Source: Galbibacter sp. BG1
GTDB lineage: Bacteria > Bacteroidota > Bacteroidia > Flavobacteriales > Flavobacteriaceae
Assembly: GCF_013391805.1 (NCBI RefSeq)
Contig: NZ_CP058364.1
Span: forward strand, 1,860,501 to 1,924,500
DNA length: 64,000 nucleotides
Reading direction: 5' to 3'
Shown here in pieces: positions 2,104-25,765 of this stretch (position 1 is its first letter; the number at the start of each line of letters is the position of its first letter). The notes under the pieces were generated by a model. It was not told where the DNA came from. It made no database searches and saw only the letters and a program-made list of their open reading frames with translations. Position numbers and translations under genes: made by a program.

Positions 2104-2379
2104 ATGGCTAGTATAAAAGATTTAAAGAAGGATATCAATTTTGTTTTAGGGGATATTATCGAGGCGGTTTATCTATGGGAAATAAGTACCGATAACAAGA
2201 ATTCTAAAGAAGGAGATAAAATTATTGATGAAGCGATAGCTGTTTTCGACGAGCTTATTGAGAAAGTAAACAATAAAGAGGTTGAAAATAGAAGCGCGCA
2301 CCTGAAGGCGGTTAATAAAGAGTTGGAAGAAAAGGCATCTTCTTTAATAGAAAAGCTTAATAAGCTTCCGGTGTCTTAA
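2104..2379 (+). CDS. Small charged helical protein, function unknown
   Basis: The 91-residue product has no signal peptide or membrane segment. It is rich in Lys, Glu, Asp and Ile/Leu with little Pro or Gly, so it should be almost entirely alpha-helical, possibly a helical hairpin (helices roughly 5-30, 37-62 and 63-88). I do not recognise a catalytic motif. It starts 33 nt after manA, with a TActTTTG box at 2079-2086 that could be a -7 element but lacks a good -33 partner. It ends just before the tRNA-Thr promoter. The open frame and normal codon use support a real gene; no function is assigned. Confidence 0.75.
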   Translation: MASIKDLKKDINFVLGDIIEAVYLWEISTDNKNSKEGDKIIDEAIAVFDELIEKVNNKEVENRSAHLKAVNKELEEKASSLIEKLNKLPVS

Positions 2380-2418
2380 ATGACAATCCACAAAAAATAA
2401 AAATTTCTTTTTAAAAAG

Positions 2419-2449
2419 TTTGCTAAAATAATTTTCAAGATTATATTTG
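2419..2449 (+). promoter_or_regulatory. Promoter of tRNA-Thr
   Basis: TTTG at 2419-2422, a 19 bp spacer and TATATTTG at 2442-2449 match the Bacteroidetes sigma-A consensus exactly. The predicted start lies about 12-14 nt upstream of the tRNA. The same boxes with the same spacing precede the tRNA-Val pair. Confidence 0.78.
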
Positions 2450-2468
2450 CGCACTTTTTAAGGGAATT

Positions 2469-2542
2469 GCCGATGTAGCTCAGCTGGCTAGAGCAGCTGA
2501 TTTGTAATCAGCAGGTCGTGGGTTCGAGTCCCTCTATCGGCT
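2469..2542 (+). tRNA. tRNA-Thr (anticodon TGT)
   Basis: A 74 nt cloverleaf. The acceptor stem GCCGATG pairs with TATCGGC (last pair G-U). The anticodon stem GCTGA/TCAGC closes the loop TTTGTAA with anticodon TGT, reading ACA/ACG-type threonine codons. The T-arm is GTGGG-TTCGAGT-CCCTC. The discriminator is T and no CCA is encoded. A canonical promoter lies upstream and a strong hairpin terminator begins 4 nt downstream. The last 17 nt (from 2526) are repeated three more times downstream. Confidence 0.97.
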
Positions 2543-3044
2543 CTAAAGCCTCTTCACACCGAAGAGGCTTTTTTTATGCACATATTTCAAGAAAATTATT
2601 ATTTAATGAGAGGGACGAGAAGCCTGTCCCGATCGAAAAGAATTGGAGCATCGGGGAGTCCCTCTATCGGCTCTAAAGCCTCTTCATATCGAAGAGGTTT
2701 TTTTATGCACATATTTCAAGAAAATTATTATTTAATGAGAGGGACGAGAAGCCTATCCCGATCGCAAGGAAGTGGAGCATCGGGGAGTCCCTCTATCGGC
2801 TCCAAAGCCTCTTCATATCGAAGAGGCTTTTTTTATGTTCATATTTCAAGAAAGCTATTGTTTAATGAGAGGGACGAGAAGCCTGTCCCGATCGCAGAGA
2901 ATTGGAGCATCGGGGAGTCCCTCTATCGGCTCCAAAGCCTCTTCATATCGAGGAGGCTTTTTTTATATTCATATTTCAAGAAAACTATTGTTTAATGAGA
3001 GGGGCGAGAAGCCTGTCCCGATCGCAGAGAATTGGAGCATCGGG
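2526..3044 (+). repeat. Four tandem ~130 bp repeats derived from the tRNA-Thr 3' end
   Basis: Units run 2526-2655, 2656-2784, 2785-2914 and 2915-3044 (130, 129, 130, 130 bp) and differ at only a few positions each. Every unit starts with the last 17 nt of tRNA-Thr (GAGTCCCTCTATCGGCT). Next come a terminator-type hairpin (AAGCCTCTTC/GAAGAGGC plus T-run), an AT-rich segment and a GC-rich block ending ATCGGG. The first unit contains the real tRNA end. There are no spacers, so it is not a CRISPR. The layout resembles the repeats after E. coli tyrT, where each unit also carries the tRNA 3' end. Whether the RNA is functional is unknown. Confidence 0.93.
2546..2575 (+). terminator. Intrinsic terminator of tRNA-Thr (repeated in each unit)
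   Basis: A 10 bp stem AAGCCTCTTC/GAAGAGGCTT with a 5 nt loop is followed by a run of T. Copies occur at 2676-2704, 2805-2834 and 2935-2964; unit 2 has a G-U pair and unit 4 a T-G wobble, so all four keep the stem. Confidence 0.88.
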
Positions 3045-3130
3045 AAATTGACTTCCATACTTGGTTTATTTTTCAGCTAAACTTTATAAGAAGGTAAACT
3101 CTCATTATCTTTGCCGGTAGATAAAATATC

Positions 3131-4105
3131 ATGGATACAAACGCTATTTTTAATATTCAAACAGCAAACGATTTTCTAGAAACGGCACTTGCCGTTTTTC
3201 GTTTTCAGTATGCAAACAATAGTGTTTATAAAAAGTTTTGTGATCTTTTAGGGAAAACCCCAATGCAGGTGAATACCTTGGAGGACATTCCTTTTTTACC
3301 AATTCAATTTTTTAAATCACATCCTGTTTTAAGTTCGGCGCAGCCAGAAGAAATTTTATTTACCAGTAGCGGTACCACAGGTAATACCACAAGCAAACAT
3401 TATGTAACAGATCTGGAAATCTATAGGAAGAGTTTTAGAAAAGGGTTTTCCTATTTCTACGGAAATGTTGAAGAATATACGATTTTGGCATTGCTTCCCG
3501 CTTATTTGGAGCGAGAGGGATCGTCTCTGATTTACATGGTGAATGATATGATCGATCAATCCAAAATGCCCGAAAGCGGATTTTACCTTCACAACCTCGA
3601 AGAACTTGCCCAGCAATTAAAAGCATTGGAAGCGGCCGGGAGAAAAACTCTTCTTATTGGGGTCTCTTTTGCTTTGTTGGATTTGGTAGAGCAATACGAC
3701 TTTACCCTTAAGAATACAATTGTTATGGAAACTGGAGGAATGAAGGGTAGACGGAAGGAAATGATTCGTGCCGAATTGCATACCGAGCTTAAAAAGGGTT
3801 TTGGGTTGCAACATATACATTCAGAATATGGGATGACAGAGTTGTTGTCGCAGGCTTATTCCAAAGGAAGGGGTGTTTTCGATTGTCCGCCTTGGATGAA
3901 AATACTTATACGCGATCCAGAAGATGCTTTGTCGTTGCTTTCCGATGGCAAATCGGGAGGCGTTAATGTAATCGATCTCGCAAATGTAAATTCGTGCTCG
4001 TTTATCGCTACCCAAGATCTTGGGCGAATTAAAGATAAATCTTTTGAAATTATTGGCCGCTTTGATAATTCAGATATACGCGGATGTAATCTAATGGTTT
4101 TATAA
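3131..4105 (+). CDS. LuxE-family acyl-protein synthetase-like protein
   Basis: Belongs to the LuxE/acyl-adenylate branch of the ANL-like enzymes, which activate a carboxylic acid with ATP or transfer an acyl group. The 324 residues span the usual family length. The N terminus has the typical pattern of aromatic and FLPIQFFKSH motifs. The phosphate-binding loop SSGTTGNTTSKH is at 79-90 and an adenylation-type motif ETGGMKGRR sits near 198-206, followed by HSEYGMTELLSQAY. No luxCDAB genes are nearby, so it should not be read as luminescence. In Bacteroidetes such proteins are widespread and their acyl substrate is unknown to me. It starts 86 nt after the repeat array. Confidence 0.85.
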   Translation: MDTNAIFNIQTANDFLETALAVFRFQYANNSVYKKFCDLLGKTPMQVNTLEDIPFLPIQFFKSHPVLSSAQPEEILFTSSGTTGNTTSKHYVTDLEIYRKSFRKGFSYFYGNVEEYTILALLPAYLEREGSSLIYMVNDMIDQSKMPESGFYLHNLEELAQQLKALEAAGRKTLLIGVSFALLDLVEQYDFTLKNTIVMETGGMKGRRKEMIRAELHTELKKGFGLQHIHSEYGMTELLSQAYSKGRGVFDCPPWMKILIRDPEDALSLLSDGKSGGVNVIDLANVNSCSFIATQDLGRIKDKSFEIIGRFDNSDIRGCNLMVL

Positions 4106-25642: not shown

Positions 25643-25743
25643 TTAAAACGCCAAGTTGGCTTGAGCGTTTGAAGAATACAAAGAAACAATCACTTTAGTG
25701 CATTAAGGTTTGCTATTTGCAGGCATGCGCGGAATGGAGATTT

Positions 25744-25765
25744 AATCCAGTATCGCCCACAACAA
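25744..25765 (+). repeat. Stray copy of the tRNA-Val 3' end
   Basis: These 22 nt, ending TATCGCCCACAACAA, are identical to 25579-25600 (the last 16 nt of tRNA-Val copy 2 plus six flanking bases). No cloverleaf precedes them. A strong terminator follows, so the arrangement copies the '3' end plus terminator' unit seen after tRNA-Thr. The intervening 25643-25743 holds another small hairpin (25646-25670) and no gene. Confidence 0.88.

Follow-up and report, generated by a model that had tools for sequence, protein, structure and literature searches.

Behind a tRNA-Thr gene of Galbibacter sp. BG1, the last bases of the tRNA are found again and again, in tandem, each time followed by a terminator hairpin. 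The question raised by this locus is whether the array is a local accident of duplication, or whether it belongs to a recurrent kind of tRNA trailer comparable to the RtT element. In the literature covered, reports of RtT concern E. coli and its relatives. Recurrence of this anatomy behind many tRNAs in another phylum, with a hairpin fitted to each of them, would provide a comparative system. A window of 64,000 nucleotides (the whole stretch of DNA analysed) containing the array was studied together with the rest of the genome and with related genomes.

Anatomy of the array

TRF finds a single array at 2526–3044, with a period of 130 and 4.0 copies (94% matches, score 877); the remaining four TRF rows of the window score only 56–70. 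The units are 130, 129, 130 and 130 bp long (spacing 129–130), and their features are listed in Table 1. The 17-nt tail GAGTCCCTCTATCGGCT is exact at all four of its positions, and corresponds each time to positions 57–73 of the tRNA, followed by C74. This bears out the preliminary description of the locus, which reported four head-to-tail units that begin with the final 17 nt of tRNA-Thr, the first of these being the genuine tRNA end.

The order within a unit, from 5' to 3', is tail, terminator, spacer, a sequence here called X, a motif, an inner hairpin, and then the next tail. X is 9 nt long (GAGAGGGAC) and can pair with the T-stem strand in the tail copy that follows, eight of its bases being complementary to GTCCCTCT in that tail. 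The motif, GAGAAGCCTGT or (in unit 2) GAGAAGCCTAT, follows directly 3' of X. Unit 4 stops at its inner hairpin. X, the motif, the inner hairpin and the missing final tail are parts that go beyond the preliminary description. Its statement that every unit has a terminator hairpin is correct: a consensus terminator scan lists three of the four (shuffles of the region average 1.0), and the fourth, which starts at 2675, differs by a base at the bottom of its stem, with CCTCTTC/GAAGAGG retained.

It was also suggested that read-through RNAs would have tRNA-like 3' ends. Reading of the sequence shows this to be half right. A tail copy has the 3' strands of the T-stem and of the acceptor stem, but the acceptor 5' strand is absent, and the copy would therefore not form a ready minihelix for RNase P. 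The further concern that an assembly error might collapse the copy number can largely be set aside: point changes distinguish the units, the genome is a single contig of 3.7 Mb, and two tails stand at the corresponding site in a sister species, all of which makes an artefact unlikely. A search of the genome with the array sequence (E 0.001) returns no place but the array itself.

Two other candidates in this region were rejected. An ORF of 139 aa runs across the array (2576–2995), and is taken as chance because it has no Pfam match and the unit length is not a multiple of three. The Rfam near-hits in window 2300–3300, Plastid-ycf2 and Phe_leader, are far below their own cut-offs.

Table 1. Features of the tRNA-Thr(TGT) array, in positions of the window
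Feature	Position	Strand	Basis
tRNA-Thr(TGT) gene; tail (positions 57–73) at 2526–2542	2469..2543	+	ARAGORN, sequence
Unit 1 terminator hairpin and T-run	2545..2575	+	sequence, terminator scan
X1 GAGAGGGAC; 2609–2616 complementary to 2658–2665	2608..2616	+	sequence
Unit 1 motif GAGAAGCCTGT	2617..2627	+	sequence
Unit 1 inner hairpin (CCCGATCG...GCATCGGG)	2628..2655	+	sequence
Tail copy 1	2656..2672	+	sequence
Unit 2 terminator hairpin (absent from consensus scan list)	2675..2704	+	sequence
X2	2737..2745	+	sequence
Unit 2 motif GAGAAGCCTAT	2746..2756	+	sequence
Unit 2 inner hairpin	2757..2784	+	sequence
Tail copy 2	2785..2801	+	sequence
Unit 3 terminator hairpin	2804..2834	+	sequence, terminator scan
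X3	2867..2875	+	sequence
Unit 3 motif GAGAAGCCTGT	2876..2886	+	sequence
Unit 3 inner hairpin	2887..2914	+	sequence
Tail copy 3	2915..2931	+	sequence
Unit 4 terminator hairpin	2934..2964	+	sequence, terminator scan
X4 (GAGAGGGGC)	2997..3005	+	sequence
Unit 4 motif GAGAAGCCTGT	3006..3016	+	sequence
Unit 4 inner hairpin, without tail behind	3017..3044	+	sequence
Downstream gene with LuxE (acyl-protein synthetase) domain, outside the element	3131..4105	+	ORF, domain search

Occurrence behind other tRNA genes

Comparison of sequences indicates that the array is not an isolated duplication, since six of the 40 tRNA genes in the genome, and many related loci, carry tail copies. The 40 genes were found with Rfam, and their 3' flanks were scanned over 600 nt for copies of their own tails with at most 4/17 mismatches, outside other tRNA genes. 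The six are the gene of the array (Thr-a), a second tRNA-Thr(TGT) (Thr-b), one tRNA-Lys (Lys-a), tRNA-Ile, tRNA-Leu(TAG) and the second tRNA-Val; a decayed copy at Lys-b, a partial copy at Gly(GCC) and, 372 nt behind tRNA-Phe, a match with 3 mismatches were excluded from this count. A search of the 3.7-Mb genome for CGAGAAGCCTGTCCTGAGC, with up to 3 mismatches, gives six sites, each behind a tRNA: four in the array, one at Thr-b and one at Lys-a. The reversed pattern, used as a control, gives none.

The largest array seen in the genome is that of tRNA-Leu(TAG) (tRNA at 847277; locus positions 1571–2475). It has 7.1 copies of 127 bp and eight tails including that of the gene, with tail, terminator and hairpin in each unit, and GAGAAG is absent. 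At window 25743–25759 there is a 16/17 tail copy of the second tRNA-Val(TAC), 165 nt downstream of it, followed by a terminator-like hairpin and with no GAGAAG before it. A tail copy with hairpin also lies between tRNA-Ile and tRNA-Ala, probably within an rRNA operon, and Croceitalea has three such units between the same two tRNAs.

An exact 19-mer search of a named genome collection gave 63 matches at 47 loci. Of the 63, 35 lie within 700 nt behind a same-strand tRNA and have at least 13/17 of that tRNA's tail after them; several more (in L082, L101, L109 and L121) resemble, by reading, the tails of a tRNA beyond the end of the locus. The remaining matches are palindromes that lie apart from tRNA genes and come from Sphingomonas, Nitrospirales, Chloroflexi, Methyloversatilis, Mangrovimonas and a proteobacterial bin. 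One Kiritimatiellales tRNA-Asp locus and one Peribacteria tRNA-Tyr locus have the same layout, with CCA within the tail. As a separate observation, other phyla have CGAGAAGCCTGTCCTGAGC at places that are not near a tRNA (L106, L119), inside other inverted repeats such as AGTCGAGA/TCTCGACT.

In the family Flavobacteriaceae, the 20-mer (up to 3 mismatches) is present in 97 of 397 genomes. Loci L125–L214, comprising 30 loci from this family search and 60 further stretches, contain 132 sites for two 20-mers; a tRNA precedes 92 of them by no more than 900 nt, and at 78 at least 13/17 of that tRNA's tail comes next. A looser motif was applied to the window, six loci of its own genus and L078–L214, a sample that is mostly Flavobacteriaceae and in which the units of one array are counted separately. 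This gave 155 distinct sites, of which 130 lie behind a tRNA; at 113 of them, at least 13/18 of the cognate tail follows. Units were found for 15 anticodons, namely Thr, Gln, Trp, Met, Leu, Lys(TTT), Lys(CTT), Gly, Asn, Ile, Arg, His, Asp, Ala and Tyr. The 17 tRNA-linked sites without a copy were inspected by reading: twelve are the last in an array, one is at a contig end, and four are single, with a partial copy or none. No tRNA lies near variants that lack GAGAAG, for example TCAAGTAGCC or TCGAGCAGC, in any fetched locus.

In a sample of 395 Bacteroidota genomes the 20-mer (up to 2 mismatches) is found in nine, six of them Flavobacteriaceae. One of the other three is tRNA-linked, with the same anatomy, at tRNA-Leu(TAA) (L257, L260), and two are not (L255, L256).

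The distribution was also checked independently of the motif, using the tRNA-Trp tail in the 397 Flavobacteriaceae genomes. It is present in 343, and at more than one site in 25, on a single strand in 22 of these. Ten multi-tail genomes were among those listed, of which two were already motif-positive (G181, G354), two had distant sites or sites on different contigs, and six were fetched. Five of the six have GAGAAG in the spacer ahead of the copy, and the sixth has AAGAAG; both single-tail controls lack the unit.

Complementarity and folding

X was compared with the following tail in 87 distinct pairs. At positions 60, 62 and 63 pairing is higher than in any of 1000 shuffles of the partners; from position 65 onward it is close to background. 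A set of fixed length was also assembled, from the 64 of 113 elements that have a standard loop; 59 are distinct, and one of these was removed because its register is shifted. Among the resulting 58 elements, pairing of X with the tail has p ≤ 0.0065 at positions 59, 60, 62, 63 and 64 (the shuffles do not correct for relatedness), position 61 is almost invariant (p 1.0), and 65–67 are at background. Judged from these comparisons, X ends about where the T-stem ends, and the acceptor strand stays free. In the inner stem, pairs 20–37 and 22–35 lie beyond all 2000 shuffles, which ignore kinship, and pairing is retained through base changes. The sequence of the inner hairpin is quite different in the window and in loci L037, L173 and L183.

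Motif positions 7 and 10 were considered as a further base pair. They are C-G or T-A in 57 of the 58 elements and T-G in one; they are not called a pair because the correlation may reflect just two sequence lineages.

These results bear on the view that the array is a neutral by-product, in which a REP-like palindrome came to lie behind tRNA genes, and tandem duplication ending in the T-loop copies tail, terminator and palindrome together, unselected and driven by slippage. Against this, behind many tRNAs X is matched to their own tail and goes no further than the T-stem, the inner stem keeps its pairing through change, and the same order of parts is found in the E. coli tyr repeats. Other structural data favour it. 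Where copy and tRNA differ at positions 59–65 (n = 40), X fits only the tRNA in 18 cases, only the copy in 7, both in 11 and neither in 4, and X therefore does not appear to be clearly repaired after mutation of the copy. Nor are single hairpins unusually stable: seven elements folded alone have z from −1.33 to 0.51 against shuffles, and the stem of X with the tail is in the lowest-energy fold of four of the seven. The 129-nt stretch 2572–2700 has z of −2.28, yet X here pairs inside its own motif and not with the copy. Hairpin stability, in the seven elements and in this stretch, thus gives no support for RNA function.

Gain and loss between species

The number of units differs between close relatives. 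Tail copies at Thr-a are found in three of seven species of the window's genus, with four, two and two tails including that of the gene, so that extra tails range from 0 to 3. In another genus, one of five species has a unit at Thr-b, and in the other four the DNA found behind the copy directly follows the tRNA; one species of this genus has three units at Thr-a, and the other four have none. Random decay of the repeats in sister species, which the preliminary description had considered, is consequently not the main picture, since both genera show either units or a clean site. Decayed tail copies do exist elsewhere, for example at Lys-b. At Thr-a, DNA from the last tail onward aligns right behind the tRNA in two sisters, at 78–79%, while in the other two the alignment begins only 85 nt further on. 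Given recurrence of the anatomy in this way, sister species with and without units would offer a contrast in which effects of the trailer on tRNA levels, 3'-end processing and amino-acid starvation could be followed.

Two observations on individual loci may be added here. In locus L003 of a sister species, at ~1853–2377, 21-bp repeats in at least 18 copies lie close behind two tRNA-Thr tails. The Thr-b unit of G401 was considered as a homologue of the Thr-a unit of G235, and this was rejected: the 81% match rests on tRNA, motif and tail, and the spacers are not clearly alike.

A labile copy number, with 0 to 3 extra tails in one genus, would be expected of a neutral by-product, as would the fact that 12 of the 17 copy-less tRNA-linked sites end an array. 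A comparison of spacers cuts both ways. With the cut set at 0.35, 40 of 73 loci have a first spacer similar to the DNA that follows the copy, as after tandem duplication, and 33 do not, so that simple tandem duplication does not account for the latter. Tail identity is equally high in the two groups, at 17.4/18 with like and 17.3/18 with unlike spacers, which speaks against neutrality, with the proviso that low values could not appear because tails below 14/17 are outside the collection. Taking both sides together, we regard a neutral origin as rather unlikely.

The second alternative is a mobile cassette, that is, units that insert at the tail of tRNA genes through site-specific recombination and carry their own spacer and terminator, in the manner of a very small integrative element. 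The ends of tRNA genes are common landing sites of genomic islands, and here such an end is duplicated without harm to the gene. Occupied and empty sites are precise, with the old downstream DNA behind the last tail; in 33 of 73 loci the spacer is unrelated to the DNA after the copy; and the copy differs from the tRNA less often at positions 65–74 (12 of 740 cells) than at 61–64 (18 of 296). As with elements that integrate into tRNA genes, there is a copy of the tRNA end on the far side and a precise empty site, but precise loss through the tails would give identical empty sites, and precise gain and precise loss look alike in the present sequences. The tail is the host tRNA's own at each of 15 anticodons, which would be hard for one element to achieve. 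A 130-bp unit is too small to hold a recombinase. The units are not dispersed in the genome, no motif lies beside its two Y1 transposase genes, and an exact 19-mer search of viral contigs gave 0 hits and so no sign of viral carriage. We consider a cassette decidedly unlikely. The two Y1 transposase genes are related to each other (L215, L216); one is a match with an internal TGA, and the other is followed by an apparent further transposase gene.

Insulation of the downstream gene, proposed in the preliminary description, is possible at this locus, where four terminator hairpins stand in series (three passing the scan, every stem kept) and the LuxE domain is indeed found, but it is not a general rule, since the T-run (five T before X) is absent from 25 of 73 first spacers. 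That the extra units are kept because serial terminators shield the LuxE-domain gene from tRNA transcription is highly improbable; the Trp, Ile and Thr-b units, for their part, sit between co-directional genes.

Proposed function

We favour the interpretation that the array is a Bacteroidetes RtT-like tRNA-trailer repeat, with a copy number that is labile through its direct repeats, and which yields RNA only on read-through; we would put its probability at roughly 0.55. At the level of sequence it draws on the anatomy, the recurrence of cognate tails at 15 anticodons, the fit of X to positions 59–64 and the precise presence or absence of units. Each unit consists of a tail (57/58–74), a spacer (here with a terminator), X, GAGAAG(CC or TT)T(G or A)T, an inner hairpin and the next tail. 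Recombination or slippage between tails of 17–18 nt would raise or lower the number of copies, and such exchange would leave the tRNA intact every time. In a read-through transcript, X could pair with the T-stem strand of the copy to form a hairpin. The copy may then compete less with the real 3' end while the tRNA folds, and the trailer could become a separate structured RNA, as described for E. coli rtT.

A role of the units as RNA is possible. Their transcription is nevertheless doubtful, because a terminator precedes X in the window and a T-run is present in 48 of 73 first spacers. The fold results, and the count for the E. coli arg copies given below, also weigh against the RtT-like interpretation, which we hold less firmly for that reason.

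Comparison with known systems

We found no description of such repeats in Bacteroidetes in the literature, a weak negative as subscription journals are mostly outside the coverage. The 3'ETS-leuZ of E. coli, known here from annotation, is likewise an RNA from sequence behind a tRNA gene; it is unlike the units described here in that no tail copy is present behind leuZ.

REP and BIME elements share the inner part, CCTGAGC...GTCGAAGG, which occurs also away from tRNAs in other bacteria. In this genome the inner-part pattern has nine sites with up to 3 mismatches (reversed control 6), and only three with up to 2, one of which is Thr-b. The units here differ from REP/BIME in being tied to tRNA tails, in having one orientation, and in an outer stem formed with the tail copy. 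They are also unlike REPs mobilised by a Y1 transposase, being neither dispersed in the genome nor beside such a gene. Four passages of a paper on GTAG and CGTC palindromes make no mention of tRNA-tail repeats (PMC3733652), and another paper describes rtT as similar to attenuator-like BIME elements in Enterobacteria (PMC2965389).

The preliminary description likened the array to the E. coli tyrT/rtT repeats, as an independent case in Bacteroidetes. The likeness is upheld: the E. coli tyr locus (RtT, RF00391) has the common order of tRNA, spacer, X, GAGAAG, hairpins and tail copy, in tandem. The array is, however, no lone case, with units behind tRNAs of 15 anticodons in many genera. In E. coli tyr a 10-nt X is followed by GAGAAG in three of four copies and by GAGAAC in one. 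The classic description of rtT is reportedly one of 178-bp repeats; the tyr copies are indeed 178 apart, compared with units of about 130 bp here. The array also differs from tyr in having an intrinsic terminator in each unit, a shorter inner hairpin and a tail without CCA.

Nine regions of E. coli were examined, with 36 tRNA predictions (one odd antisense; tyrT is cut by a region edge). In these regions, tail copies outside tRNA genes are found behind tyrV, all six tRNA-Lys and three of four tRNA-Arg(ACG), and nowhere else. The copies behind lysT/W/Y/Z/Q/V match in 18/20; argV/Z/Q give three distinct copies of 18–19/20, and argY has no copy of its own. The lys and arg copies are single, between or behind genes of the operon, with no GAGAAG, and X is often short or absent. 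Compared with shuffles, X is significant in four of four tyr copies, one of six lys copies and one of three arg copies tested, where the four tyr copies are close to one observation because they belong to one array. The RF00391 model (gathering threshold 45 bits) finds four tyr and five lys places in E. coli and has no match in the arg region. It has no match at E up to 1 in window 2300–3300, and 100 Flavobacteriaceae genomes give none over the cut-off, the best scoring 19.3 bits (stricter filters; E. coli control positive).

The array thus lies behind a tRNA gene, in tandem units each with a tail copy except the last, and fails to reach the model score: it is RtT-like in layout and not a member by the Rfam model. 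According to PMC4986893, E. coli RtT RNA is released in tRNA processing and affects the stringent response. Tentatively, and with more doubt than for the array itself, we suggest that RtT-like elements may be one broad bacterial class of tRNA trailers, structured RNAs in which the outer stem re-forms the T-stem using a further copy of the tRNA's 3' end, the acceptor strand being left unpaired. Such trailers would be renewed for each tRNA by copying of the tail and writing of its complement, and would either yield a tRNA-specific small RNA or buffer 3'-end maturation.
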